From Tropicimonas marinistellae (GTDB lineage: Bacteria > Pseudomonadota > Alphaproteobacteria > Rhodobacterales > Rhodobacteraceae): 64,000 bases of DNA. Position 1 is the stretch's first letter, and every line of letters begins with the position of its first letter. Under the pieces are notes generated by a model that had not been told where the DNA came from, made no database searches, and saw nothing but the letters and a program-made list of their open reading frames with translations. The position numbers were made by a program, and so were the translations under genes. Below, piece by piece: positions 3,303 to 59,815 of the stretch. The stretch lies in assembly GCF_001509585.1 (NCBI RefSeq), contig NZ_LNCI01000004.1, positions 1-64,000 of the forward strand, read 5' to 3'.

Positions 3303-3890
3303 AATGGCATTTCGTCTACGCTAGTTCTAAGCGCCGATAAGCGGCCATACGTTGATTGTGCAGCAAACTTCCGTTCCCCGCCCTTTTTTGACTATTGCTG
3401 CACGGCAGCGCGACGATCGCCATCGGTTGGGGTTTCACAGCACCGACGTCAAATGACAGTTTTCGGGTCTCAAGCCAGATTATTAGATTGAAGGCGGCAT
3501 GTTAGCTGTGTTCGATAGCGCTGGCTGCGAGCCCTCGCAACCATAATTTATACACGATATCAATTGCTTAAAGTCGACATCGGCCGATCAAGTTTTTGAT
3601 GTCGCGTATTGCATCAACGCAAGATCAACGTTTGACGAGTCCACAGGATCGAACGGCTGGAATCGATGCTCTGGCATGGCCCAGCGAAGGCACCGCTCCA
3701 ATTCGTACCCAAGGTAGTGTTCTTGATATCGGCTCGTGAAACAAAAGAACTGACGACATCGGATTTCCATGTTTCGGATCGCGCGCTCGAGCAGGCTCCC
3801 ACTGCCCGAAAGGACCCCTCTTCTGTTCCCATCTGCCTCCAGGCTGCGATCATTGACGTTGTCACCAATGATTGCCTGGTGCCAGATCGC
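3303..3890. other. intergenic stretch with no recognised gene
   Basis: Between the amidohydrolase and the convergent epimerase there are nearly 600 bases in which I find no convincing coding frame on either strand. The short open frames here lack family resemblance and ribosome-binding sites. It is somewhat lower in GC than its surroundings (for example around 3480-3600), so a decayed gene is possible, but I see no recognisable remnant. Confidence 0.5.
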
Positions 3891-10675: not shown

Positions 10676-11192
10676 GATATCCTCCAAAACAACAACGTCG
10701 CGCATTCCTGATACGGACTCTGCGCCGATTACCGTCGCATGTCTGTAGCAAAAATGTAATCGCTCGAGAGAAGAGTCAGGCCAGTCGCAAGCGCCCCGAA
10801 ATTGGGGATGCGGGACGCTCGCCGGCCTGAATATGGCCTGGCGCTCAGAGGACCACTCAACCCCTCGACGCACCTGAGAAGCTAAAACCTGTCTGCTGCG
10901 TTGGCAATCAAGCGTGTAGAGATCCGCTGCGGGTAGCCGACAAAGCGGTGATTTTCTCTGCACGACTCCACCTCAAGCAACGATTCGACCGGTGAACCCG
11001 GGCGGCGCCAGTAGCATCGGCAAGTCGAGACGGTTTGACGTCTCGCGAAAACGGCCCGGACCAAATCGATGACATCGCCCGACCATGGTCTGAAGAGTTC
11101 GCGCGTCGGGTCGGGTTTTGTGGCGATATCGGGCAAGCGCCCAGCGAAAACACCGCCTCGCGAGTTCCGGGTGGCCAATGGGGAGATACCTT
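10676..11192. other. divergent intergenic region, no gene found
   Basis: About 500 bases separate the minus-strand EF-hand gene and the plus-strand poly-aspartate gene. I see no credible coding frame. The region should hold the two divergent promoters; a GGGGAG ribosome-binding sequence lies just before the plus-strand ATG. No clear operator repeat was found by eye. Confidence 0.45.
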
Positions 11193-12014
<822 letters not shown>

Positions 12015-30437: not shown

Positions 30438-30551
30438 AATTCTCGTGCCAACACGGCCGGAACAGAGCCAAATCGTCTTGGACGGGGATAATTTCCGCGG
30501 TTTCGGCCAAGCGCGAGACATCCCTTGGGAAATGGCAGAGAGGAAATCAGC

Positions 30552-32471
30552 ATGGCTTTCGGAGTGCGTGGCGGTGTCTCCGCAACGGCTATCCTGCTGG
30601 CGTCAGTGGCCGTTGCACAGGATCATGGCGAAGGCCTTGGCGGCGGGACTCTTGCTTCGGCAGACGTCGCCGTGAACCAACCGGATTACTCACCCTTCGT
30701 CGATCAGCATATGCCGACAGACGTGTTCTGGGGCGACACGCATATGCACACCTCTTATTCGGTGGATGCCGGGTTCTTCGGAAATGTGCTCAACCCCGGC
30801 CATGCCTATCGTTTTGCGCGCGGCGAGGAACTCACCTCGAGCACGGGCAGCCGGGTGAAGCTGCACCGTCCGCTGGACTGGCTGGTCATGGCCGACCACG
30901 CCGAGTATTTTGGTCTCGCAGATATGCTGGCTGTCGGTGACCCGGCCATTCTGGAAGACCGGGTAACGAAGCGCTGGTACGACATGCGCCAGAGCGGAAA
31001 CCCGGATGAAGGCATGCAGGCCTTCTACGAGGTGGTGGACTCGATCACCAAGTCGAACAACCTTGTCGAGAACCCGAACATCCAACGTACGGCATGGGAC
31101 AAGACCACCGCCTTTGCCGACCAATACAATGAACCGGGTGTTTTCTCGGCTTTCATCGGGTTCGAATGGTCTTCGACCGCAGGCGGCAACAACCTGCACC
31201 GGGTCGTCATGTACCGCGATGGCGCCGACCGCGCCCGCAGTTCCGTGCCCTTCAGCGCGTTCGACTCGGACGACCCCGAAGCTTTGTGGGACTGGATGGA
31301 CGGATACGAAACGAGCTCGGGCGGCCGAATTCTCGCAGCGGCGCATAACGGGAACTGGGGCACGGGTCTGATGTTCCCGGAAACCCGCAACAACGGCGAG
31401 CCAATCGACGTCGCCTACTCGGAGAAGCGGATGCGCTTCGAGCCCATCTACGAGGTGACCCAAATCAAGGGCGACGGCGAGACGCACCCTGTCGTCTCGC
31501 CAGACGATGCCTGGGCCGATTTTGGCACTTGGGACAAGGGCGACCTTGGCGGACGAAACCGTATCACCCCGGAAATGATACCGCATCAATATGCGCGCCC
31601 GGCCTTGCGCCTCGGTCTTCAGCATCAGGCCAGCATCGGCGCAAACCCGTTCAAATTCGGTATGATCGGCTCGACAGATACCCACACGTCGCTTGCGACG
31701 ACTCGCGAGGACAATTTCTTCGGAAAGAACCCTCCCGCTGAGCCCGATGCAGCGCGATGGAGCCACATTTTCATGAAGGGCGAATTGGAAGGGACCGACT
31801 ACTACAACTGGGAAACGCTTGCCTCCGGTCTGACCGGCGTCTGGTCCCGCGAAAACACACGCGAGGCCATCTTCGACGCGATAAACCGCAAGGAGGTCTA
31901 TGCAACCACCGGTTCACGCATCACTGTGCGGGTCTTCGGTGGATGGGATTTCGAGGCGGACGAGGTCGAACGCCCGGACTTCGCCGAGCGCGGATATGCA
32001 GCTGGCGTGCCGATGGGAGGTGACCTCTCCGACGCGCCGGATGGCAAGGTGCCAACCCTGATGATCCGGACCCTGCGCGACCCGGACAATGCCAACCTCG
32101 ACCGCGTACAGATCGTGAAGGGGTGGATGAACGCGGATGGCACAACCAGCGAGAAGGTCTTTGACGTGGCCTGCTCCGACGGTCGAGCAATCGTCGATCA
32201 CGCCTGTGATGGCGATGTCGGGAACACGGTGGATGTGGCGAATGCCACCTATACCAACACCATTGGCGATCCGATGCTGAATGCAGTCTGGGCCGATCCG
32301 GACTTCAACCCGGCGCAGCATGCTTTCTACTACATCCGCGTGCTTGAGATCCCCAAGCCAACCTGGCAGGCACATGATGCCGCCTATTATGGCGTCGAAA
32401 TGGACCCGGAGGTCCCGATGATCCTGCAAGACCGCGCCTACACTTCGCCGATCTGGTACACACCCGGTTGA
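30552..32471 (+). CDS. DUF3604 exported PHP-like metal hydrolase, copy 1
   Basis: A 639-residue secreted protein. After the signal peptide (residues 1-23) comes the DUF3604 metal motif FWGDTHMHTSYSVDAG (HxH at 64-66), then LVMADHAEYFG (D115, H116) and a late D-x-H in MIGSTDTHTSLATTRED. The HxH plus DH plus DxH layout is that of PHP-type phosphoesterases and amidohydrolases, but no reaction is established for the family. The C-terminal ~150 residues (RDPDNANLDRVQIVKGWM, then ILQDRAYTSPIWYTPG) are shared almost word for word by the two other copies in this window. Start at GAGGAAATCAGC-ATG; an ATG 27 bases upstream is possible. Confidence 0.88.
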   Translation: MAFGVRGGVSATAILLASVAVAQDHGEGLGGGTLASADVAVNQPDYSPFVDQHMPTDVFWGDTHMHTSYSVDAGFFGNVLNPGHAYRFARGEELTSSTGSRVKLHRPLDWLVMADHAEYFGLADMLAVGDPAILEDRVTKRWYDMRQSGNPDEGMQAFYEVVDSITKSNNLVENPNIQRTAWDKTTAFADQYNEPGVFSAFIGFEWSSTAGGNNLHRVVMYRDGADRARSSVPFSAFDSDDPEALWDWMDGYETSSGGRILAAAHNGNWGTGLMFPETRNNGEPIDVAYSEKRMRFEPIYEVTQIKGDGETHPVVSPDDAWADFGTWDKGDLGGRNRITPEMIPHQYARPALRLGLQHQASIGANPFKFGMIGSTDTHTSLATTREDNFFGKNPPAEPDAARWSHIFMKGELEGTDYYNWETLASGLTGVWSRENTREAIFDAINRKEVYATTGSRITVRVFGGWDFEADEVERPDFAERGYAAGVPMGGDLSDAPDGKVPTLMIRTLRDPDNANLDRVQIVKGWMNADGTTSEKVFDVACSDGRAIVDHACDGDVGNTVDVANATYTNTIGDPMLNAVWADPDFNPAQHAFYYIRVLEIPKPTWQAHDAAYYGVEMDPEVPMILQDRAYTSPIWYTPG

Positions 32472-38398: not shown

Positions 38399-40300
38399 AT
38401 GAAAGGGCTAAACTCGAGAGTATTGGCGCTTGTTGCTGCAACCGGCTTCGGCACAGTTACTGCTGCGCAGGATGTCCTGCCATCTGTGGAAGACGTGGCC
38501 GTGCCCAAGGCCGAGTATTCACCTTACGCGGACGATCACTTCCCAAATCGCGTTCTGTTCGGAGACACTCACCTGCATTCGTCCTGGTCCACGGACTCCG
38601 GATTGGCAGGCGGCACGCTCGATCAGGATGCCGGCTACAGGGTGTCACGCGGCGAAGAAGTGACCAGTCACCTCGGCTGGAGGGTCAAGCTCATCCGCCC
38701 CCTGGATTTCATCGTCATGGCCGACCATGCCGAGAACCTCGGCGTTGCGGATTTCATCCGCCGGTCCGATCCGCTGATCCTTGCCAATGAGACCGGCAAG
38801 AGATGGCACGACATGGTCAAGGCGGGGAACGGGCATGAAGCTTTCCTCGAATGGCTGCGCGCGAATGACACCGACCTAATCGATGAGCCGAAAATCCTCT
38901 CCTCGGCTTGGGATGGCGCGACGAGCAATGCCGACAAGTATTACCAGCCCGGCACCTTTACCACTTTCCACGGCTTCGAATGGACGTCTCACCCCGGTGG
39001 CAACAACATGCACCGGGTGGTCATCTTCCGTGATGGCAAGGACCGTACATCGCAGGTTCTGCCGTTTTCGCAGTACGATTCCACGAACCCCGAAGACCTT
39101 TGGGATTACATGGCCGACTACGAGGAAAGGACCGGCGGACAGGTTCTGGCAATTCCGCATAACGGGAACCTCTCCAACGGGTTGATGTTCGCACTGGAAA
39201 CGCTGGACGGGCCACAATTGTCGGGCGAGGCCATTGACGCGGATTACGCGGCCAAGCGGATCCGCTGGGAGCCCCTGGCCGAAGTCACCCAGCAGAAGGG
39301 GGACGGCGAAGCGCACCCGCTTCTGTCGCCCGACGACGCTTTCGCCGATTTCGAAACGCTCGATGCGGGCAATCTGAATGGCCAGCAGGCGAAGACACCG
39401 GAGATGCTGCCGCGCGAGTATGCCCGCGAAGCGCTCAAGGTAGGCTTGAGCGTGGAATCGGAACTGGGCGTGAATCCGTTTAAGTTCGGGATGATCGGCT
39501 CATCCGACAACCACACAGCGCTTCCGACTACGCGCGAGGAAAGCAACTTTTCCAAGGCTTCGTTCGTCGAACCGTCACCGGACCGGGCCCAGCACGCGCT
39601 CATCGATGCGCCCGATCCGGCGCTGTCGGTGATGGAGGCCGACGTGGGTGCTTCCGGCCTTGCCGCGGTCTGGGCGCGCGAAAACACCCGGGAATCGATC
39701 TGGGATGCTATGGCGGGCAAGGAGACATACGCGACCACCGGAACGCGGCTGTTGGTCCGCCTGTTCGCCGGGTGGGATTTCAAGGCGGATGAAGTGGTGC
39801 GCCCTGATTTTGCACGAAACGGATATGCCCGCGGTGTACCGATGGGCGGAGACCTCAAAAACGCTCCGGACGGCGGCGCACCGACGCTGATGATCCGCGC
39901 TCTGCGCGATCCGGACGGGGCAAACCTCGATCGTGTCCAGATCGTAAAGGGCTGGCTCGATGACGATGGCAACACGCATGAAAAGATCTTCGACGTGGCC
40001 TGCGGTGAGCGGGCCATCGTCGACGATGCCTGCGATGGCGATGTCGGCAACACGGTTGACGTTGCGGATGCCTCATACACCAACACGATTGGTGAACCGC
40101 TTCTGACAGCGCATTGGATCGATCCAGAATTCGATCCGAAGCAAAAGGCATTTTATTACGTCCGCGTCATCGAGATCCCGACCCCACGGTGGACGGCCTA
40201 TGACGCCAAGTTCTTCGGCGTCGAGATGCCGGAAGGCACTGCCATGCAACTGCAAGATCGGGCCTATACCTCTCCGGTCTGGTACACGCCCGAAGACTAA
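38399..40300 (+). CDS. DUF3604 exported PHP-like metal hydrolase, copy 2
   Basis: A 633-residue secreted protein with signal peptide (to TAAQD, residue 25). Motifs: LFGDTHLHSSWSTDSG (HxH 58-60), IVMADHAENLG (D109, H110), PHNGNLSNG and MIGSSDNHTALPTTREE (DxH). It ends with the shared MQLQDRAYTSPVWYTPED. GGAGG lies six bases before the ATG, a strong ribosome-binding site. It is closer to copy 3 (57905) than to copy 1 in the metal-site loop (NRVLFGDTHLH in both). Probable substrate link to sulfatases 2 and 3, which lie upstream. Confidence 0.88.
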   Translation: MKGLNSRVLALVAATGFGTVTAAQDVLPSVEDVAVPKAEYSPYADDHFPNRVLFGDTHLHSSWSTDSGLAGGTLDQDAGYRVSRGEEVTSHLGWRVKLIRPLDFIVMADHAENLGVADFIRRSDPLILANETGKRWHDMVKAGNGHEAFLEWLRANDTDLIDEPKILSSAWDGATSNADKYYQPGTFTTFHGFEWTSHPGGNNMHRVVIFRDGKDRTSQVLPFSQYDSTNPEDLWDYMADYEERTGGQVLAIPHNGNLSNGLMFALETLDGPQLSGEAIDADYAAKRIRWEPLAEVTQQKGDGEAHPLLSPDDAFADFETLDAGNLNGQQAKTPEMLPREYAREALKVGLSVESELGVNPFKFGMIGSSDNHTALPTTREESNFSKASFVEPSPDRAQHALIDAPDPALSVMEADVGASGLAAVWARENTRESIWDAMAGKETYATTGTRLLVRLFAGWDFKADEVVRPDFARNGYARGVPMGGDLKNAPDGGAPTLMIRALRDPDGANLDRVQIVKGWLDDDGNTHEKIFDVACGERAIVDDACDGDVGNTVDVADASYTNTIGEPLLTAHWIDPEFDPKQKAFYYVRVIEIPTPRWTAYDAKFFGVEMPEGTAMQLQDRAYTSPVWYTPED

Positions 40301-43159: not shown

Positions 43160-43606
43160 ATCACTTCCCCCTCAAATCGAAACGTCGAGCACCAACCATG
43201 CAACGATCAATTGGACCCGGGCAAGACATCGGAGCGCAACCGTGTGACTAACGCCGATGCCTCCCCGTTTCGCGATGCTTCGCCAGACTCGGGGAACGAA
43301 CGGCCCGGGTCAGTCCCATCGCCGCGGCATATATGGGGATTGCAAGGTCATGTGGATACGGCTGTATCGTTCCGACCGGCTCTCAAGCACCGGACTTGCC
43401 AAAGCTACAGAATTGCGTCCGGCACCTTGATTGAGGCATGGGTGCCACGAAGTGCTGGCGTTGTATGACGTGTCACCTGAACGAAGGTTCCCGTTTCTCC
43501 AGCTGGAGGACTCGTCAAATGTTGACGTGGCGTTGATGTAAAACGCGACAATTACAACTTGATCGGCCGAAGCCGACTTCAAGTCTCGGATACTGTGTAG
43601 GACTTT

Positions 43607-43655
43607 TGGTTACGGGGGTAGGATTTGAACCTGCGACCTTCAGTTTATGGGTCAA
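43607..43655 (-). tRNA. 3' fragment of tRNA-fMet (attachment-site remnant)
   Basis: On the minus strand the bases read an anticodon stem and loop with CCATAA, then AAGGTCGCAGGTTCAAATCC (variable region, T stem and loop) and TACCCCCGTAACCA, the acceptor end with CCA. This matches the 3' two-thirds of bacterial initiator tRNA-Met. The D arm and 5' acceptor strand are absent, so it cannot be functional. It sits 83 bases beyond the terminase gene end of the integrase-bearing element, as expected of an attR left by tRNA integration. Confidence 0.75.
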
Positions 43656-43738
43656 CCAAAGCTTCGAAACCGTGTTGGTCCGGTTCAGAGATCGTTTGAC
43701 CCAGATCGTGCTTTCTTCGGCCCTCAAATCACCTATCA

Positions 43739-44344
43739 TCAATTGCCACGCCTGGGCGGCGGCAATGAGTCCATGTCGTCAGCGTCGCAAGCGGTCTGCT
43801 GCGTCATGATTGGCATCGACCCGGCGTGCGAGCAGATCGCATTCGCGAGTGCGCGAAGCCCTTTTGTATGTTCTTCCTCCGGGTCAGTTTCGTCGTAGTA
43901 ACCTTGGAGTTTTGCAATCTCGACGAGCGCCGCGCGTTTGTCCGAAAAGCGGATTCGATTGACGCAAACGACGTCTGCTTCCTCACCCTTTTTGGTGGGT
44001 ACAGTCCGTGTCACCACATCGACTGCGGCGATTGCCCCCGCAATGTCGTCATCGAGGTCGGCGACCGCTTTCAGCTTTCCGTCCGCTGTGAAGATCTTGC
44101 GGATGTCGGCGAAGCCGATCTTGGCCAGGCCCTGTAAAACCGCGTCCTGCGAAAGACGCAAACGCCGCGACCGCTCCGCCTGCGCCGCCGAAATGGCCGC
44201 CGAAATGTGAGGTTTTGTCATGTTTTCATAACCTATTTCTCTCGCGGTCTGCTGGCTATATCCGGCACGGATTGCTGCTTGCGTGGCGTTGAGATCCGTG
44301 AGGTATTCCTCGACGAACCTTCGTTGCTTGGGGGTGAGTTTCAT
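43739..44344 (-). CDS. terS: terminase small subunit (TerS)
   Basis: A 201-residue protein of the Terminase_2 family. The N-terminal DNA-binding part reads LTPKQRRFVEEYLTDLNATQ and AAIRAGYSQQTAREIGYENM, followed by the coiled oligomerisation segment (HISAAISAAQAERSRRLRLS) and KRAALVEIAKLQGYY. It recognises pac/cos DNA for packaging, working with a large subunit that is absent here. The start is the ATG following GAGGGC; the upstream open frame lacks similarity. It is the last gene of the element, next to the tRNA remnant. Confidence 0.9.
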   Translation of the reverse strand: MKLTPKQRRFVEEYLTDLNATQAAIRAGYSQQTAREIGYENMTKPHISAAISAAQAERSRRLRLSQDAVLQGLAKIGFADIRKIFTADGKLKAVADLDDDIAGAIAAVDVVTRTVPTKKGEEADVVCVNRIRFSDKRAALVEIAKLQGYYDETDPEEEHTKGLRALANAICSHAGSMPIMTQQTACDADDMDSLPPPRRGN

Positions 44345-44486
44345 GGTGCCCTCGTTGTTTGGTGAGTTCCGGTTGTTCTTCGTCGATCCGAGGTCGGGCG
44401 ACAGCGCGCGCAGGCCAAGACCTCGATGCCGTAAAGGGCTGTGCGGATAAGGGAGCGGGCATGCGCGACGGCGCGGATTGCGGGCA

Positions 44487-45392
44487 TCACAGTAGTCCGA
44501 CAGCGCGGCATTCAGCCGCCGTGACGAGATCATCCGCGATCAAACGTCTCGCGGCGGCGGCAGTAACTCCTGACAAGAGGTAGTGTTTGCGCTGCTTTAT
44601 TGCCTCAACTGTCATTGCATTAGAGGCGGTTCGGTTGGTTTCGTTGCTCATTTCGTGGCTAGATTTCTCGCTTTTTAAGATCGAATTTACGTATGCCACC
44701 GCGTCTGTTGCGCCTGCCTTTTCCGCCTTGTCTAACGCTGCGAACACGGATTGATCACCGTAGTCGCTTCGCCATTTTCCGATTACTGATCTTGCCTGCC
44801 GATCCGTGAGGCCCTGCGCGAGGAGAATCTCCACGCCGCTTTCGAAGAGAAGCTTTCGCAGGTTGACGGGGGGGGTGTCCTCTCGAAGAGAGGAAAGGTT
44901 TGGTAGTTGGAAAGGAGCTCTCCGCGGACAGTCCCCGGATGGATCTACGGAACTAACCGTGGTTGCAGGCGTACTTATATTTTTCAATGCCTTAGCGGGT
45001 TTCTCACTTCGTTTTCGATCAGATTGCCGTTTTACGTGCTGTTCGACGAAACGCGCCTCTTTTCGCAAGTTTTCGGAGGTAAGCCGACCATCAACTTCCG
45101 AGAAGAGCGGCAGGACGGCCGGTCCAATACGGGAATTCCACAAGCGCAAAGAAACGCGAGCGACCTTTGCGAGGCGGCGCGGATCGTTGGGCAAGTCGCA
45201 TCCCTCGCGCGACCACATTGCGAAATTTAGCAAAACAAGGGCGCCAACCTCGTCTGCGGCGAGGAGTTGAGTATCGCGCAAGAACGAGTCGATCCATATC
45301 GGACGGGGGCGCCTGGTTCGCGCAAGCTTTGCATTGAATTCACCGTCGTCGTGCATTTCTACGAGTGCTCGACTTTGCGGCTCTCGAGCCAA
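44487..45392 (-). CDS. DUF1376 replication-type protein
   Basis: A 301-residue protein with an N-terminal DUF1376 domain (WIDSFLRDTQLLAADEVGAL and FAMWSREGCDLPNDPRRLAK), found in YdaU-like phage replication-initiation proteins, a basic linker, and a C-terminal helical part (LFESGVEILLAQGLTDRQAR). It probably initiates or directs element replication. It overlaps the AlpA gene by 34 bases. GC content in the middle is lower than the genome around it, as is usual for acquired phage DNA. Confidence 0.82.
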   Translation of the reverse strand: MAREPQSRALVEMHDDGEFNAKLARTRRPRPIWIDSFLRDTQLLAADEVGALVLLNFAMWSREGCDLPNDPRRLAKVARVSLRLWNSRIGPAVLPLFSEVDGRLTSENLRKEARFVEQHVKRQSDRKRSEKPAKALKNISTPATTVSSVDPSGDCPRRAPFQLPNLSSLREDTPPVNLRKLLFESGVEILLAQGLTDRQARSVIGKWRSDYGDQSVFAALDKAEKAGATDAVAYVNSILKSEKSSHEMSNETNRTASNAMTVEAIKQRKHYLLSGVTAAAARRLIADDLVTAAECRAVGLL

Positions 45393-45568
45393 GTTCTCAT
45401 GTCAATTTCACGCCAACCAACCGCGCGGCGACCAATCCGCACTGGGCGGGGAAACTCGTCGCGCGCCATCATCGCGTAGATTGTCGAGCGGGACAGGCCG
45501 GTAATTTCCTCGATCGCTGTCCGGCGAAAAATCCTACCGAGGCCGTCCCAGGTAGTGTTTCCTTCCAA
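45359..45568 (-). CDS. alpA: AlpA-family excisionase/regulator
   Basis: A 69-residue MerR-like winged-helix protein: RTAIEEITGLSRSTIYAMMA then DEFPRPVRIGRRAVGWREID and TWLESR, the AlpA signature. AlpA proteins switch on or help excise P4-like elements and satellites. It lies between the unknown gene and the DUF1376 gene with an overlap into the latter. In PICI satellites AlpA is a marker gene for induction by helper phage. Confidence 0.9.
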   Translation of the reverse strand: MEGNTTWDGLGRIFRRTAIEEITGLSRSTIYAMMARDEFPRPVRIGRRAVGWREIDMRTWLESRKVEHS

Positions 45569-45671
45569 TGTTTTTCATCCCTTTCGTGCTTGCTCTTTCG
45601 GGCACACTCAGGAACGCAAAAAACGATGGAAGGCGCAAATCGGCAAAAATGCCAAAAAATCGAGAAAGAAG

Positions 45672-46748
45672 CTAATCGATTGTATTTATTGCTCTATTTA
45701 ATGTCCGTTGGCTGACGCTTTCGCCGAGCTCGCGCTCGACGGCGCGCAGAACAACCTTCTCTGGAATGTTGCCGTGCCCAAGCGGAAACACGCGTTTGTA
45801 GGCCGCCTGGACTCTTGGTATCATCGGCGGACGTCCCTTCCGTCGTTTTCCTGTGGTCTCAGCGCCCGACGTAACAACACCACCGATCGTAGCTTGCCCG
45901 GCGAAGGGTTCGGCTGGGCAATTTGGGGTCGGGAACAGCCCACGGAGATCGGAGAACCGAACCATGGTAGCATCGAATTCGCCGCGCGGGGATCTGAGCC
46001 GGTCCGAGTCCCAATCATGGTTGCCTGCGCGCCAGTCTTCAGGTCGGATGTCCACGAAGCGCCCGGCTGGCTGTCCTTCAACCGGATCGTGTACCAAACG
46101 CCCGATGCGCTCCGCCCTGTCGAATTCCTGCCAACCTCGGGCACTCAGTCGCCCTGCCTCCAGCGCAACAAGAAGAGCGTGACGGGCGCTCGCCAGGGGC
46201 TTGGTAAAGACCTCCTCTTGCGCGCGCGCCCATTCGTACTCCAAAACGAACGGTACGGCCTTCTCGACCGTTTCCTCGATAGCGCATTGGTGGGCGGCGT
46301 CAGAAGCGTCCCACTCGGCTTGATCGCCTGGCGGTGCCCATCCGAGGGTTTCCATGCGATCTGCACGTGCCAACCGCCGCACGTCGTCGAGGAACTCCTC
46401 CACATCCATCCCGTGCAATCCCTGCAGCGCCCGCAGGTAGCGTTGATGATCGATGTCTGTTCCAACCGCTCGAAACTCTGGCTCGGAAAACCTGTACTGA
46501 CCGACGTCCCGGGTCAGACCGAGCCAGTACGCATCCTCGCCTAACCTAATATCGATCGTTGCGATGGGGCTTGCGCCGCCGTTCCCGTCATTCGGGAGAT
46601 CCTCTCCAGCGTCGTCGTCAATCCACTCGGTTTTGCGCGGCGGAACCCGTCCCAGCGCGATCCATAACGCCGCTTCGGACAGGTAACAGAATTCTGCCGG
46701 CTCGATGGTCGCGTAGAGCGCGCCGACGTCGTCGCGTACATCAGGCAT
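45672..46748 (-). CDS. unknown element protein with C-terminal helix-turn-helix-like region
   Basis: A 358-residue acidic protein. The N-terminal 300 residues match nothing I recognise. The C-terminal ~60 residues (GRPPMIPRVQAAYKRVFPLG, then AVERELGESVSQRTLNRAI) look like a small winged helix-turn-helix of the kind found at the end of element-borne proteins. Its ATG shares the A of the integrase TGA (TGATG), so it is translated with the integrase. This unknown conserved position next to the integrase makes it the main candidate for a satellite-specific function such as interference or immunity, as inference only. Confidence 0.7.
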   Translation of the reverse strand: MPDVRDDVGALYATIEPAEFCYLSEAALWIALGRVPPRKTEWIDDDAGEDLPNDGNGGASPIATIDIRLGEDAYWLGLTRDVGQYRFSEPEFRAVGTDIDHQRYLRALQGLHGMDVEEFLDDVRRLARADRMETLGWAPPGDQAEWDASDAAHQCAIEETVEKAVPFVLEYEWARAQEEVFTKPLASARHALLVALEAGRLSARGWQEFDRAERIGRLVHDPVEGQPAGRFVDIRPEDWRAGNHDWDSDRLRSPRGEFDATMVRFSDLRGLFPTPNCPAEPFAGQATIGGVVTSGAETTGKRRKGRPPMIPRVQAAYKRVFPLGHGNIPEKVVLRAVERELGESVSQRTLNRAINTID

Positions 46749-47959
46749 CAATTCTGTCCCGTGAACTGAACCACTTCGCCGCCATTCGATTCGAGGTATG
46801 TCGACCAGGCGTGCATCATCTTGCGCCGCTTCTCGAACAGGTCGGAGCGGGCATAGGCCTGTTCGACGGCGTTGCCTGTCTTGTGGGCGAGCGCGGCTTC
46901 CGCCACCTCGCGCGGAAAGTTGGTGCGCTCCTGCACCCAGGTGCGGAATGACGTGCGGAAGCCGTGAACGTCGGCGTCAAATCCGAGCTCCTTCACCAGC
47001 TTAGACAGCGTCATGTCCGACAACGCCTTTCCTCGAATGCTCGGGAACAAGAGCCCCGTGTCGTCGCGCAGCGTCGCCGCCGCGTCCAGGATCGCCATGG
47101 CGCGTGCCGATAGGGGCACCCGGTGCGGGCGCTGCATCTTCATCCGCTCTGCCGGGATCTCCCATGTGGCCGAGACCGTGTCGATTTCCTCCCAGCGTGC
47201 CAGTCGCACCTCTCCCGAACGGCTCGCGGTCTGCACCAGGAACTCCAGCGCCAGTTTCGTCGACACCCAGGCCTTCGAGGATTGGACCGTCTCAATGCAA
47301 TCGGCCACATCCGAATAGCGTAGTGCCTTGCGGCGCTTTGGCTTCCGATCGGTGCGCGGTAAAGCGAGAGCTTGCGCGATCGACGGATTGTCGGTGCACA
47401 TGCCCTCGGCGATGCCCCACTTGAAGACGAATGAGCACCGATAGGTCAGCTTCTTGGCAACGCCCGGTGCCTTCTCTCTGGCCGCCAGAATGGCCTGCCG
47501 CACGTCGGCACTCGTGACCTCGGGCAAAGGAACTGCGCCGAACCGCGGGAAGATGTAGGTCTCCATCGAGGACAGAAACGCCGCCCGGTCTTTGGGGTTC
47601 TTCCAGGTCGGAGAAAGCTCTGCGTGGGTTTTTCTGGCAGCCTCTTCGAATGTGAGGATGGCCCGCGCTCGTCGTTTCTCGCTCAACGGATCTCCGCCGC
47701 CGCGCGCGAGACGCTTGTTCTCGATGGCCTCCTCCCGTGCGGCGGCCAGGCTGACAATTGGAGGGCTCCCCAGGCCAAGCTCGCGACGCTTGCCGCGAAT
47801 GGTGATGCGCTGAACCCAGAAACGCCCGCCTGTCGGCTTCACCAGAAGAAACAGACCCGTGCCCTTGCCGTCGTGATACTTGCCGGGTTGGGCGACATGC
47901 TTGACGAATGCGGCGGTCAGGCCCGTTCCAGATTTGTTCAGGTATCCCTCTTTCGCCAT
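46748..47959 (-). CDS. int: P4-type tyrosine-recombinase integrase
   Basis: A 403-residue integrase: N-terminal DUF4102 arm-binding domain (GKGTGLFLLVKPTGGRFW and the strand RGKRRELGLGSPP), SAM-like core-binding domain, and catalytic domain with Arg in TASRSGEVRLARW, HGFRTSFRTW (HxxR) and the Tyr in EQAYARSDLF. Such integrases usually insert in tRNA 3' ends, in line with the tRNA-fMet fragment at the other end of the element. The start after GGGGGAACGAG is preferred over one 42 bases upstream. Confidence 0.92.
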   Translation of the reverse strand: MAKEGYLNKSGTGLTAAFVKHVAQPGKYHDGKGTGLFLLVKPTGGRFWVQRITIRGKRRELGLGSPPIVSLAAAREEAIENKRLARGGGDPLSEKRRARAILTFEEAARKTHAELSPTWKNPKDRAAFLSSMETYIFPRFGAVPLPEVTSADVRQAILAAREKAPGVAKKLTYRCSFVFKWGIAEGMCTDNPSIAQALALPRTDRKPKRRKALRYSDVADCIETVQSSKAWVSTKLALEFLVQTASRSGEVRLARWEEIDTVSATWEIPAERMKMQRPHRVPLSARAMAILDAAATLRDDTGLLFPSIRGKALSDMTLSKLVKELGFDADVHGFRTSFRTWVQERTNFPREVAEAALAHKTGNAVEQAYARSDLFEKRRKMMHAWSTYLESNGGEVVQFTGQN

Positions 47960-48112
47960 CTCGTTCCCCCTAGGGATGCCGGAACGGACGGGAACACTCA
48001 TGAACGATTTGGAGCTAGATGGGAAAAAAACACATTGAATCTAAAGAAGTAGATGAACATCGCCGGAACCTCGTGTAACAACATATGGCGCTCCCAGCGC
48101 GCCAGCGATTTC

Positions 48113-48142
48113 AAAGGGTTAGGCCGCAGCGCCTAACCCTTT
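48113..48142 (+). terminator. strong hairpin terminator with T-run, plus strand
   Basis: AAAGGGTTAGGC pairs with GCCTAACCCTTT around the loop CGCAGC, followed by TTTTCTTTCTCTTT on the plus strand. All nearby genes run on the minus strand, so it has no obvious gene to terminate; it may be the leftover of a gene removed on integration. Just upstream is a second small hairpin (TGGCGC with GCGCCA, 48086-48104). Confidence 0.75.
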
Positions 48143-48305
48143 TTCTTTCTCTTTGGGGATCCACATCCTGGGGAACGAGCAGGGTAGCTTGCGGCCGACA
48201 ACATGCCGCATCCAAATTGCCGGCATCCGTATCCGCGGCCTGCGTTCAATCGGATTCGCCGGAATATCCGGACACGACACGTAGTGTATTGCTGCGATCC
48301 GGTTT

Positions 48306-48554
48306 CTACAGCTCTCGTTGGGAGGCCGTTGCGAACCATGAAACGACTGTCGCCTCAAGTCGGTCAAGATGGTCCGGCGGCATCCCCTGCGCCCGCTTGC
48401 CTATCCGATTGGCGAGCATTTCCGCGTCCTCGCCGATTATGAAATGGACGAGCGACACGCCCATGGCATAGCTCAGCTTCAGCAATGTCACAGTATTCGG
48501 GTTCTGCGATTTGCCGCTGCGTATGTCGCGAACGTCGGGAGCAACCGTGCCAGT
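48306..48554 (-). pseudogene. XRE-type repressor remnant
   Basis: After a stop at 48557-48555 the frame reads TGTVAPDVRDIRSGKSQNPN and TVTLLKLSYAMGVSLVHFIIG, the recognition half of a CI/XRE-like helix-turn-helix, then an amphipathic C-terminus to 48306. The first two helices are missing or in another frame, so this is a truncated repressor. A GTG at 48491 could start a short product, but without the DNA-reading helix it would not act as a repressor. Probably the decayed regulator of the adjacent element. Confidence 0.5.
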
Positions 48555-48805
48555 TCACCCCCCCAAAGTGAGAGAGCGGACTCGCAATGTCATCGAGATA
48601 ACGCTGCGAGTTTCTGGCAATTGCACATTCGCCCTGACCGCGCTCCGCCCCCTAGGAAGCGCTAGCTGCAACGCAAGAACTACGCCGCGACCAGAAAACC
48701 TGGAAAGTAATTGTTATTTATAGATATTTTGTGACTACCCAAAAATGATTCACCTTGTCATCGCCGACTCAATTCATATCGGCGGACAAGGATCAGGAGA
48801 TGGAC

Positions 48806-49102
48806 ATGTTGGAAGAACGCGTTTGCGCGAGTGATTTCGCAATGCGCGATGTTTCGGAGTTGCACCTGCAGGCGCAACACCTGCGCGGCCTGTTGTACGC
48901 GCTCACAGAGTTTGAGCCACATGATAGACGTCGGACGAACGTTCCCGGCTTTAGCGCTACGCTAGCTCCGACGCCGTGGTACGATCGATGGCCCGCGTGC
49001 GATGCCCCTCTTGAGAGGCTCGCCGAAATCTGGTGCGCGTTCCGATGCGTGTTCTTGATTATGGTGATGCGGCGGTTAGGCGCCGGCTGCGAGCGTTCCT
49101 GA
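48806..49102 (+). CDS. small hypothetical protein next to the element
   Basis: A possible 98-residue protein on the plus strand, starting MLEERVCASDFAMRDVSELH after a CAGGAG at correct spacing, with an A/T-rich promoter-like stretch at 48711-48735. It matches nothing I recognise, and its C-terminal part (from about residue 75) looks non-coding. It may be a truncated cargo gene of the element or a chance frame. Confidence 0.3.
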   Translation: MLEERVCASDFAMRDVSELHLQAQHLRGLLYALTEFEPHDRRRTNVPGFSATLAPTPWYDRWPACDAPLERLAEIWCAFRCVFLIMVMRRLGAGCERS

Positions 49103-49297
49103 ACGCTACGCGCGAAGTTTCCCGCATCCGGTCACGTATCAAAGGCCTCTTGTCCCGAACTGGTAGGTACGGCGTTCGCGATGAGCGCGGTCAGGATCGG
49201 GCATGCACACGTCGCGACCGTGAGCGGAGACGAGCCTCTCGTCCAGGTCCCTTCGACCGAACTGGCAAGGCGCCCCCACCTCCGGGGCGCCACTACG

Positions 49298-50965
49298 TCA
49301 CCTGGCGATGGACTGTTGCTTCAACAGGAAGGCATCGACGGCTGCCTGCGTCTCGGGGCGCAGGTTCTCGATCCCCTCGTAAGGCACGCCGCGTGCCGGG
49401 CCGGTGTCGGGATATTTCTCCTTGCGCGCCTTGTGGCGGCCGAGAATGCGGACGAATTCCTGCCCGCCCCAGGCGCCGACCTCGGTGGACACAGGGTATT
49501 TCTCATGCGTGTCTCGGAAGATGTCGTAGAAATCGGCGAGGATCGCGCTTTCCCCGGCACCCGGGAGGTTCAGCTTCAGCTGATCCTTCACGATCGCCTT
49601 GGGCGTCGCCACCGAATAGACGATTACATGATCCCGACGCCCTTTCGACTCATCGTCCATCAGGATCGCCGCCGATTGATCGACCCCATCGACAAGCCGG
49701 TCGCGCGGGATCGCATCGCTCGCACCTCCGAGGCGCGCCAGCGTCGTATACAGGTCGGAGACGTGGATGATGTTGTTCACCAGGGAATCCGCAGGGATCA
49801 TCCCCGGCCAGCGGATAAAGGCATCGACGCGGATGCCCCCCTCGGTCGTGTCGCCCTTACCTCCACGGAAGATCATCGGCGTGAAGCCCGATTGCGGGGA
49901 GTATTTGGTGAAATGCCCGTTATCGCCCATCAGGACAACAATCGTGTTGTCGGTCACGCCCAGCCTGTCCATCTCGTCGAACAGATCCCCGAGCCAGCGG
50001 TCGAGCAGCTGCATCTTGTCGACGTAGAGCCCGCCATTGGGGCTCTCGGGGCCGGTCCGGCCGGTGCGGGTATTGTGCAGGGGGATCATTGGCCAGTACT
50101 GCAGGAAGAACGGCGTCTCGCCTTCGGATAGCCGCTGCAACTCCTCCAGGGTCTTGTCCTGGAACGCCTCGTTCATCTCGTCGTATTTCGCGGTGTTCCA
50201 GCGCTCGCCCGGCTGCATTCGAATCTCGCGGATCGGGCCGCCTGCCTCCCCTTCGATCACCGTCGCCATGGCGGAAGCATCGGGGCGGAACAGGGTATCG
50301 AGCGTATAGGTCGCCTCGAAATCGGAAATCCCGACGGAGACCTGCTCGCGGATCGCGTCATCGTGGAAGATCGTCAGCTGCCCCTGCTGGTGGATGGCGT
50401 GCTGGGCATAGTCGAAGCCCTGGTTCATCGCCCAGCTCTCCGGGATGTCGCCCATATGCCATTTGCCGACATGGCTGGTGGCATAGCCCGCGGACTTGAG
50501 CACTTCGGCCAGCGTCACCTCTTCACCCGGAAGCCCGAACCCCGCAATGTCGACCGTGGTGTCGCCCATGCCGATCCGCACGGGCAGCCGTCCGGTCATC
50601 TGGGCCACCCGCGTGGGCGTGCAGGAGGGCTCGGTGTACATCCGCACCATCCGCATCGCCTCGTCAGAGAAGGCGTTGATATTGGGCGTCTCGTAGCCCC
50701 GCACCGCGTTCAACTCGGGAATGCCCATATCGCCGAAACCCAGGTCGTCGATCAGGATGCTGAGGATATTGGGCGGCTTGCCGCCATTGCCCTCCCGGAA
50801 TGTCGCGAGCATCTCGTCGACGGCCGCATCGTCCGCGGCCCATTGCTCTGCGTGCTGCGCTTCGAGGATGTAATACTCGGCATCGTGAATGATCGGCGCG
50901 TCCTGCGATTGCGACACGCTGGCCGTCATCGCGAGAATCATGGCCACGAAGGGGGGTTTCATCAT
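49298..50965 (-). CDS. periplasmic sulfatase 4 (formylglycine type)
   Basis: A 555-residue sulfatase with signal peptide (to SQSQD, residue 22), metal motif LIDDLGFGDMG (72-82), formylglycine motif TEPSCTPTRVAQM (Cys115), HVGKWHMGD and VLMGDNGHFTKY for the second metal pair. AGGAGAGAC precedes the ATG. The open frame continues upstream of 50965 but is unrelated to sulfatases. It lies 70 bases downstream of the DUF3179 gene on the same strand and continues the sulfatase theme past the mobile element. Confidence 0.92.
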   Translation of the reverse strand: MMKPPFVAMILAMTASVSQSQDAPIIHDAEYYILEAQHAEQWAADDAAVDEMLATFREGNGGKPPNILSILIDDLGFGDMGIPELNAVRGYETPNINAFSDEAMRMVRMYTEPSCTPTRVAQMTGRLPVRIGMGDTTVDIAGFGLPGEEVTLAEVLKSAGYATSHVGKWHMGDIPESWAMNQGFDYAQHAIHQQGQLTIFHDDAIREQVSVGISDFEATYTLDTLFRPDASAMATVIEGEAGGPIREIRMQPGERWNTAKYDEMNEAFQDKTLEELQRLSEGETPFFLQYWPMIPLHNTRTGRTGPESPNGGLYVDKMQLLDRWLGDLFDEMDRLGVTDNTIVVLMGDNGHFTKYSPQSGFTPMIFRGGKGDTTEGGIRVDAFIRWPGMIPADSLVNNIIHVSDLYTTLARLGGASDAIPRDRLVDGVDQSAAILMDDESKGRRDHVIVYSVATPKAIVKDQLKLNLPGAGESAILADFYDIFRDTHEKYPVSTEVGAWGGQEFVRILGRHKARKEKYPDTGPARGVPYEGIENLRPETQAAVDAFLLKQQSIAR

Positions 50966-57766: not shown

Positions 57767-57904
57767 TTCACTCCAATTGCCCCCTTTGGGAAAGTCTGAC
57801 CGACCAAGCTGCGTTACCCTACGACACTACACACGCGCGACGAGATTATCCAAACCACTGTCGAACAACGACAAAAGCGAGAGAATTTGCAGGGGGGACA
57901 CTCC

Positions 57905-59815
57905 ATGAAGATCTGTCGGCCGTCGACCAACGTGACGTTTTCGCTGGCTTGCATGGCCCTGTTTGCCATCGCCGGCTCCGCCAATGCGCAGGACGCGCCG
58001 CCGCCGATCCCGGGCGAGCGGGCCTATTCACCCTACCTCCAGCGGGACTATCCCAATCGCGTGCTCTTCGGCGACACGCACCTGCACACCTCCTATTCCC
58101 CGGATGCCGGAATGATCGGCAACAACCTGGGGCCGGAGGAGGCGTTTCGGTTTGCCAAGGGAGAGACGGTGACCTCCTCCATGGGGGTGCCCGTCCGTCT
58201 CGTCCGCCCGCTGGACTGGCTCGTGATCTCCGACCACGCCGAGGGGCTCGGCGTGGCGCCAATGCTGAAACGGGACGATCCAGCGGTGCTCGATACAGAG
58301 TTCGGTCGAACGCTGCATGGCTATGTGCAGGACGGCTCGGCCGAGGCAGCCGGCGCGGCGTGGAACCTGTGGGCCGGCTCCCGGTTCGAGGGGACGAACC
58401 CCTATTCGAACAACCCGGATTTCTCACGCGGCCCCTGGGAAGAGACGATCGACGCGGCCGACGCGGCGAACGAACCCGGTCTGTTTTCGGCGATCATCGG
58501 GTTCGAATGGTCCTCGACGCCCAATGGAAACAACATGCATCGCGTGGTCGTTTACCGTGATGGCAAGGATGTCGCGAACGCGCGCGTCCCGTTGTCGGCG
58601 GACAATGGCGTGAATCCAGAAGACCTCTGGGATTGGATGGCGGCGCTGGAAGCGGAAACGGGCGGGCGGGTTCTGGCCATCCCTCACAACGGCAACCTGT
58701 CGAACGGGCTGATGTTCGATGACACCCGCTACGCTTCGGATGAGCCGATAGACACGGACTATGCCGAACGGCGTGCGCGGTTCGAGCCGCTCTACGAAGT
58801 CACCCAGATGAAGGGCGACGGCGAGGCGCACCCGATGCTGTCCCCCGACGATCCTTTCGCGGATTTCGAGACATGGGACAGCGCCAATTTCGGTGACGGC
58901 GTGAAGACGCCGGAGATGTTGCCAAAGGAATATGCCCGCCCGGCCTTGCGGCGTGGCCTGGCCTATCAGGCGGACCTGGGCGTGAACCCGTTCAAGTTCG
59001 GGATGATCGGGTCGACCGACGCGCATACGTCGCTCGCGACGACACGCGAAGACAATTTCTTTGGAAAGGTCGCGCAGCTTGAACCGACAGCGGACCCGGT
59101 CCGCTTCGAAGAGATCATTGCCGGAAGACTGGGGGCTCCCGAGAACGCGATAGCGGCCTGGCAAACCTCCGCGTCGGGCCTTGCTGCCGTTTGGGCACGC
59201 GAAAACACCCGGGGGGCGATCTTCGACGCGATGATGCGCAGGGAGGTCTATGCCACCACCGGCACGCGCATCCGGGTACGGGTATTCGCGGGCTACAACT
59301 TCGAGGCATCGGACCTGCCCCGCTCCGATTTCGCGGCGTATGGGTACGAGAACGGGGTGCCGATGGGGGCGGATCTCCCGGCCGGCGAGGGCCGCGCGCC
59401 GCGCTTCCTTGTGCGTGCGCTCCGGGATCCTGACGGTGCCAATCTCGACCGGGTTCAGATCGTCAAGGGTTGGCTCAACGCCGACGGCACCACGGCCGAG
59501 CGCGTCTACGACATTGCCTGCGGAGGCCGCGAACTGCTGGACGACGCCTGCGACGGCGTGGTTGGCAATACCGTCGATGCCGAGGAGGCCAGCTTCACCA
59601 ACGCTATCGGGCAGGCGATCCTCGCTGGCCACTGGGAAGACCCGGATTTCGATCCGTCCCAGAGCGCATTCTACTACGTTCGAGTCCTCGAAATTCCGAC
59701 GCCACGCTGGACAACCTTCGACCGCAAGGTGTTCGGCGCCGAACTTCCCGAGGGCGCACCTGTCTCCATACAGGAACGCGCCTATACCTCTCCGATCTGG
59801 TACACGCCGAGGTGA
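57905..59815 (+). CDS. DUF3604 exported PHP-like metal hydrolase, copy 3
   Basis: A 636-residue secreted protein, paralogue of the two earlier copies. Signal peptide to ANAQD (residue 30); LFGDTHLHTSYSPDAG (HxH 59-61), LVISDHAEGLG (D110, H111), PHNGNLSNG, and MIGSTDAHTSLATTRED (DxH). It ends in VSIQERAYTSPIWYTPR, the family ending of this locus. GGGGGACACTCC before the ATG sets the start (an ATG 18 bases upstream is in frame). Its neighbour downstream is an outer-membrane barrel, as with sulfatase 1. Confidence 0.88.
   Translation: MKICRPSTNVTFSLACMALFAIAGSANAQDAPPPIPGERAYSPYLQRDYPNRVLFGDTHLHTSYSPDAGMIGNNLGPEEAFRFAKGETVTSSMGVPVRLVRPLDWLVISDHAEGLGVAPMLKRDDPAVLDTEFGRTLHGYVQDGSAEAAGAAWNLWAGSRFEGTNPYSNNPDFSRGPWEETIDAADAANEPGLFSAIIGFEWSSTPNGNNMHRVVVYRDGKDVANARVPLSADNGVNPEDLWDWMAALEAETGGRVLAIPHNGNLSNGLMFDDTRYASDEPIDTDYAERRARFEPLYEVTQMKGDGEAHPMLSPDDPFADFETWDSANFGDGVKTPEMLPKEYARPALRRGLAYQADLGVNPFKFGMIGSTDAHTSLATTREDNFFGKVAQLEPTADPVRFEEIIAGRLGAPENAIAAWQTSASGLAAVWARENTRGAIFDAMMRREVYATTGTRIRVRVFAGYNFEASDLPRSDFAAYGYENGVPMGADLPAGEGRAPRFLVRALRDPDGANLDRVQIVKGWLNADGTTAERVYDIACGGRELLDDACDGVVGNTVDAEEASFTNAIGQAILAGHWEDPDFDPSQSAFYYVRVLEIPTPRWTTFDRKVFGAELPEGAPVSIQERAYTSPIWYTPR

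Follow-up and report, generated by a model that had tools for sequence, protein, structure and literature searches.

The 64-kb window of a Tropicimonas marinistellae contig analyzed here (all coordinates refer to it) contains a cluster of five genes, and the question it raises is whether they represent a phage satellite, the remnant of a prophage, or the integration module of a larger island. The cluster reads head-to-tail on the minus strand as int, an int-overlapping gene, alpA, a gene for a DUF1376 protein (rep), and terS, with no terL beside terS (Table 1). We consider it reasonably probable that the element is a compact phage-satellite island working like a phage-inducible chromosomal island (PICI) or like one of the phage-inducible chromosomal minimalist islands (PICMI) of Vibrionaceae (PMC10803314, in excerpt). 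We base this on the gene families and their order, a diverged second copy in the source genome (G000; 5.42 Mb, 41 contigs), two related islands bounded by attachment (att) repeats, and a likely att core at the end of a tRNA-Arg. The islands compared are labeled A (the window element), B (the second copy), C (on contig C12 of G000), and D, E, F, and G (loci L182, L183, L054, and L179).

Table 1. Features of the window element and its flanks, from the terS side to the int side
Feature	Coordinates	Strand	Description
Dispersed repeat	43508..43672	-	~165 bp, with tRNA-fMet 3' half; flank, judged not an element end
terS	43739..44344	-	terminase small subunit, 201 aa; PF03592 3.6e-38, phrog_51; likely start ATG 44344
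40-bp box before terS	44363..44402	-	37/40 identical in B; candidate packaging or regulatory site
rep (DUF1376 protein)	44487..45356	-	PF07120 9e-9; phrog_3992 "primosomal protein" 6.3e-7; likely start ATG 45356
alpA	45359..45568	-	AlpA-family regulator/excisionase; PF05930 2.3e-17, phrog_2790
int-overlapping gene	45672..46748	-	358 aa from ATG 46748; TGATG junction, 1-nt overlap with int
int	46748..48001	-	tyrosine recombinase, 417 aa; arm-binding, core-binding, and catalytic domains; Pfam, PHROG phrog_1
Probable att core	48086..48104	+	TGGCGC-TCCCAGC-GCGCCA; right part = last 12 bases of tRNA-Arg(ACG)
Hairpin	48105..48150	+	kind seen after a tRNA-Arg in G630; flank, outside element

The five genes and their common strand had been named by an earlier, sequence-only reading of this DNA, and they found support in Pfam and PHROG. 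The integrase matched PF13356, PF22022, and PF00589 above the Pfam cut-offs (E 6e-18 to 9e-17) and contains, in this order, the strings SRSGEVR, HGFR, LAH, and QAYAR, which we take to be its catalytic strings. The protein of the int-overlapping gene, which could alternatively start at TTG 46751 instead of the likely ATG, has no Pfam, PHROG, or PADLOC family; its C-terminal 50 residues resemble the same-position genes of D and G, and relatives of the gene numbered none in plasmids and one other among 394 genomes, at the C terminus only. Going by its PHROG names, the DUF1376 protein may be taken as a replication protein; its relatives were absent from viral contigs and limited in phages to four partial records. 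The likely terS start matches that of homologues, and among 300 phage records none spans 80% of terS, the best reaching 69% over the first 86 residues. When 43 chosen window proteins were scanned against PHROGs, integrase, AlpA/excisionase, and TerS families came back, and none of the 25 of 36 PHROGs families listed is named for terL, portal, capsid, or tail. The lack of these genes had been part of the earlier reading and held across the window, where no structural genes forming one prophage with the element were found; in this, the element differs from a complete prophage. The five element proteins had no Pfam match to a DUF3987/DUF5906 primase at E ≤ 1, six proteins had no PADLOC match that would point to a role in defence, and the window contained no tRNA gene by ARAGORN and no Rfam family at gathering scores.

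Copy B has the same gene order and is found at the other end of the window's contig, after an open reading frame (ORF) read as metH. Its int has lost the N-terminal part and is 33% identical to the window int over the shared part; its overlap gene is unrelated to that of A and overlaps int by 8 nt; its AlpA-like protein scores 16.2 of 21 for PF05930 and 23.5 of 27 for HTH_17, below the Pfam cut-offs; and its rep combines a DnaD-like N terminus with a C-terminal region common to the window rep (46% over 127 aa). Over the first 45 terS codons, A and B agree at 115 of 135 bases and 32 of 45 third positions, against 37 of 40 positions in the box before terS, where shuffled sequence reached 25 of 40 at best. 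Because the order is the same despite the divergence of int and rep, and because the box is better conserved than the third positions, the compact gene order appears to have been maintained across a long divergence. A 31-base pattern of the box, allowing three mismatches or fewer, occurs among 394 genomes at only two places, both in G000; a 26-base pattern had no exact match in viral contigs, and a blastn search of the box region against phages gave matches in the start of terS and none in the box (20 of 59 records listed). In both copies the reading frame of terS stays open through the box, which could thus encode an N-terminal extension of TerS.

Other islands share parts of this plan. C (L177:1243-10650) is bounded by perfect repeats of 44 bp, one of them inside an intact tRNA-Asn, with 9,364 bp in between. 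Its first genes are int (24%), an overlap gene (ATGA junction), an AlpA-like gene (17.8 of 21 bits), and a weak HNH-like ORF; further genes are topoisomerase-like (phrog_6247, 6.6e-43), rep-like (phrog_8102, 4.5e-5), capsid (PF05065, 4.7e-64), and TerS (phrog_83, 1.1e-11; Pfam below cut-off). Two genome searches found no terL in C, and there was no portal among those of its ORFs that were scanned; it is possibly a capsid-carrying satellite. G, from another genus, looks complete, with 16-bp repeats (one of them inside an intact tRNA-Ser) enclosing 4,025 bp, and has int (56%), an overlap gene with 1-nt overlap, AlpA (58% over 55 aa), and a rep like that of C, with no terS match; the end of its overlap protein is 46% identical to that of A over 50 aa. 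F lies at a tRNA-Thr whose end is not repeated within 18 kb, and has int (31%), a gene 16 nt behind int, an AlpA-like gene, and DUF1376, after which come apparent type I restriction genes instead of terS. D and E are viral contigs with int (65%), an overlap gene with the same TGATG junction, and AlpA. Among the overlap genes of A to F, one of 15 pairs (A–D, C-terminal) beats all 200 shuffles.

The element had been thought to occupy 43607 to 48554, and this range did not hold. Its int-side end is probably the core at 48086-48104, so that 48105-48554 would be flank, and the distance from the repeat edge on the terS side to the core is 4,432 bp, a span and not a proven element length. The core has inverted 6-bp arms about a 7-bp spacer, the form expected of a tyrosine-recombinase core. 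G carries GGCGGA-CTGTTCC-TCCGCC at its tRNA-Ser fragment, and shuffled DNA yields 0.09 such 6-7-6 palindromes per 299 bp. Positions 48093-48148 are 86% identical over 56 bp to a site in genome G630 at which a tRNA-Arg 3' part and hairpin adjoin another integrase, so the tRNA-Arg there holds another integrase's element; contig C169 of G630 has an intact tRNA-Arg(ACG) and then a related hairpin. The intact tRNA-Arg of G000 lies at C11:1574-1650, with its 3' end toward the near contig start 1.6 kb away and different DNA after it. Insertion into the tRNA-Arg would have moved the original downstream DNA to 48105. An empty site was not found in four same-genus genomes, where the flank genes have other surroundings. 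The DNA right after tRNA-Arg(ACG) differs in G612 (L089), G000 (L091), G611 (L092), and G007 (L093), and this tRNA gene suggests itself as an integration hot spot in the genus. Outside the core, a minus-strand frame at 48306-48560 reads like a Cro/CI-type regulator that has its end but no start and is probably a pseudogene; its 61-aa ORF has no Pfam match.

Induction, replication, and packaging of such an island can be outlined by analogy with better studied satellites. Int would recombine the core at the 3' end of tRNA-Arg(ACG), and AlpA would turn on excision when a helper phage is active, with the int-overlapping protein assisting, as suggested by PICMI115, whose excision requires int, alpA, and the overlap gene and for which AlpA in trans is enough to start (PMC10803314, in excerpt). 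The DUF1376 protein could start satellite replication in place of a primase. The island TerS, perhaps acting at the 40-bp box, would then steer the large terminase and capsid of the helper to island DNA, in the way that packaging is directed by the TerS of some PICIs (PMC6092414, in excerpt). The satellite reading gains from the presence of the three PICMI115 excision genes and from the terL content of G000, where phrog_2 and a 25-row terL profile both find one terL only. This gene belongs to a cluster of Terminase_6N/6C, portal, Peptidase_S78, DUF2460, and Gp84/BR0599 genes, which we read as a gene transfer agent (GTA) of the Rhodobacter capsulatus type. A helper prophage in G000 was not found by either search, which a terL too distant for both would escape. 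Since the sole terL found is that of the GTA, the helper would be a phage from outside. We think it very doubtful that the GTA itself serves as helper, with the island TerS redirecting the GTA large terminase so that GTA particles preferentially carry the ~4.4-kb island. A GTA head holds about 4 kb, which the span would fit, and the island would in that case parasitize a transfer system that has been domesticated. With three such islands in one genome and no helper prophage found there, G000 is a testable host.

Several observations weigh against reading the element as a satellite. The order int-alpA-DUF1376-terS, which the sequence-only reading had proposed to look for in related genomes, and the exact five-gene order recurred in no other genome than G000, with its diverged second copy, among 6 TerS-matched and 7 rep-matched genomes inspected out of 295 and 390 sampled. 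Scans of IMG/VR showed no contig with the gene plan and no copy of the element; VEIMEs, a further satellite type named by that reading, are integrative elements recovered from the particles of marine viruses. B itself has an integrase without its N terminus, an AlpA below the Pfam cut-offs, and a terS that runs off the contig, so that terL could follow. After the shared module come AAA_25 and portal genes in D and, in E, which is 37.8 kb long, Toprim/DnaB genes and an ORF of TerL size that matches no Pfam family; the int module alone is therefore no proof of a satellite. A caution on the int-side edge, rather than on the satellite, is that the hairpin follows an intact tRNA-Arg only in G630, one of five cases seen, and the other four are followed by four different sequences, which fits a hot spot but leaves the "original" downstream DNA inferred. 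A 6-7-6 palindrome also occurs upstream of int in D, and none was seen in L177 or L054. Finally, CCAGCGCGCCA was found once in the window, and no partner att core lies within its 64 kb; the partner has been lost or is beyond the window, and the window copy is therefore probably stuck, or the end of a larger island.

The strongest rival, which we regard as unlikely, is that the five genes are a prophage remnant, the left arm (integration, replication, terS) cut just before terL. This explanation draws on the fact that a homologous terS in a prophage or phage contig mostly has terL after it. Of 295 genomes of the family, 7 have TerS matches, G000 among them; of the other six, two have TerL beside TerS (L027, L030), two have TerL-sized ORFs nearby (L031, L032), one contig ends 2.3 kb past TerS without TerL (L028), and one has no TerL-sized ORF beside terS (L029 in G026). 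In 80 TerS loci surveyed out of at least 567 confirmed TerS relatives, TerL was present in 61 by search (6 of these matches are weak, E 3e-6 to 7e-11: L099, L101, L108, L128, L155, L165) and in 9 more by eye; one locus (L141) ends at a contig end, and 9 have no TerL in the fetched flank (L096, L102, L111, L116, L124, L136, L148, L150, L171). TerS is thus mostly, not always, paired with TerL; an invariable pairing was what the sequence-only reading had named as counting against a satellite. An integrase search of the 80 loci yielded just 2 ORFs, and no count draws on it. In L116 (Rhizobiales bacterium 32-66-11), AlpA and PrimPol/DUF3987 genes stand before terS, and in L124 (Aquabacter sp. P-9) a PrimPol/DUF3987 gene does, with no terL seen in either of these Rhizobiales genomes, and the two loci favor the satellite reading. 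Of 390 genomes of the order, 8 including G000 have a rep match. A full-length-like rep homologue before terS-terL (L114) speaks for the remnant explanation, and E supplies the same int type, overlap gene, and alpA in a viral contig with a TerL-sized ORF; the absence of a partner att from the window is also consistent with it. What argues against a remnant is that the genes are tightly packed, without the other early genes of L114 and L055, that the strongly diverged copy B has the same compact order, and that small att-bounded islands without a recognized terL exist in G000 and in another genus. As a separate observation, at L029:9448-11618 a terS homologue overlaps an integrase gene by 4 nt, apparently with no other phage genes adjoining; the pair is a possible two-gene element.

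It is less likely still that the cluster is the integration module of a larger tRNA-Arg island, 48 kb or more in length, that runs left from 48.1 kb beyond the start of the contig, captured terS, and has no satellite life. This could explain why the window has a single att core and why the intact tRNA-Arg points its 3' end at a contig start 1.6 kb away, and F shows an int-unknown-alpA-DUF1376 series at a tRNA-Thr that leads into type I restriction-like genes. Yet the related islands with both ends found measure 4.0 and 9.4 kb, no read or contig joins C11 to C34, and terS with its conserved box has been kept in two copies, which suggests that it is used.

The idea of a 5-kb element ending at the tRNA-fMet fragment, which begins 84 bp past the terS stop, is largely refuted and hardly credible, since the int side has a tRNA-Arg end and neither a 5' half nor a further 3' half of tRNA-fMet, the flanks (43301-43760 against 47981-49300) share no direct repeat that is exact over at least 9 bp, the 3' end of the fragment points away from the genes, and other copies of the repeat have no relatives of the five proteins near them (no blastp match to ORFs around four copies, L008, L009, L082, and L083). 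The fragment that the earlier reading saw is real: the tRNA-fMet 3' half at 43607-43655 has 38 of 41 bases identical to the intact gene. We rejected it as an end and take it for a neighbor of the element. It is part of a dispersed repeat that is 87% identical over 140 bp to the intact tRNA-fMet and downstream DNA on contig C7 and 77% to places on C16 and C34, with more copies in G611 and G630. This repeat, the tRNA-fMet 3' half with ~105 bp of downstream DNA, is found at several places in the genus, namely in the window and at L008, L009, L082, and L083. At 3532-3642 of the window and at L078:16968-17098 it is reduced to the downstream part and the last tRNA bases; in L078 this stretch is open and lies inside a 180-aa ORF without a Pfam family.

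Elsewhere in the window, three paralogous genes with ~66% DNA identity (30525-32471, 38399-40300, and 57887-59815), presumably encoding DUF3604 proteins, stand among several sulfatase-like genes, and an ORF at 11118-12014 has very long aspartate-rich runs. A same-genus genome matched a Ruegeria sRNA family.

Among the open papers listed, none pointed to phage satellites of Rhodobacteraceae in its title or the opening of its abstract, which is weak evidence of absence, and the excerpt of a prophage survey of this family does not contain the word "satellite." Among described types, C resembles a capsid-forming PICI (cf-PICI) in carrying capsid and TerS genes, and the window element differs from one in having no recognized capsid gene. 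The cf-PICI is named in the excerpts of PMC10803314 and PMC11389934. With Gram-negative PICIs, as described in the excerpt of PMC6092414, the window element shares an integrase, an AlpA-type regulator, and a replication module in conserved order and one direction, the lack of recognized structural or lytic genes, and a terS homologue, which some PICIs have; it differs in spanning ~4.4 kb, against typically 12 to 15 kb, and in having no recognized primase. PICIs are further characterized by att sites that prophages never occupy and by induction and packaging that depend on a phage.

The likeness to PICMIs is closer in architecture. As far as the excerpt of PMC10803314 goes, the published model makes integrase and AlpA mandatory, along with a primase with DUF3987/DUF5906; a gene overlaps int by 1, 4, or 13 nt in 21 of 35 subfamilies; and PICMI115, which at 6,110 bp its authors count with the smallest of phage satellites, is carried as concatemers inside full-size helper particles. 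The window element likewise is very small, has integrase and AlpA genes together, runs from int through an overlap gene and alpA to a replication gene, has no capsid-remodeling genes, and has a 1-nt overlap, the int-overlap genes being of mutually unlike families. Unlike PICMIs, it has a DUF1376 protein and no DUF3987/DUF5906 primase, its own terS (the authors found none in PICMIs, in the same excerpt), an int-side end at a tRNA-Arg 3' end rather than at fis (fis itself was not searched for), and an alphaproteobacterial rather than a Vibrionaceae host. The kinship first proposed stands for the satellite-like plan and its recurrence, and not for PICI size or for the PICMI primase and fis site, for which reason we call the element a new variant working like them. 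If it works, it would span less DNA than PICMI115 yet bring its own packaging gene. The core of int, overlap gene, alpA, and rep would then be known from an alphaproteobacterium as well as from the satellites of Vibrionaceae, and both its replication part (DUF1376, DnaD-like, or primase) and its packaging part (none, terS, or capsid plus TerS) would be exchangeable.

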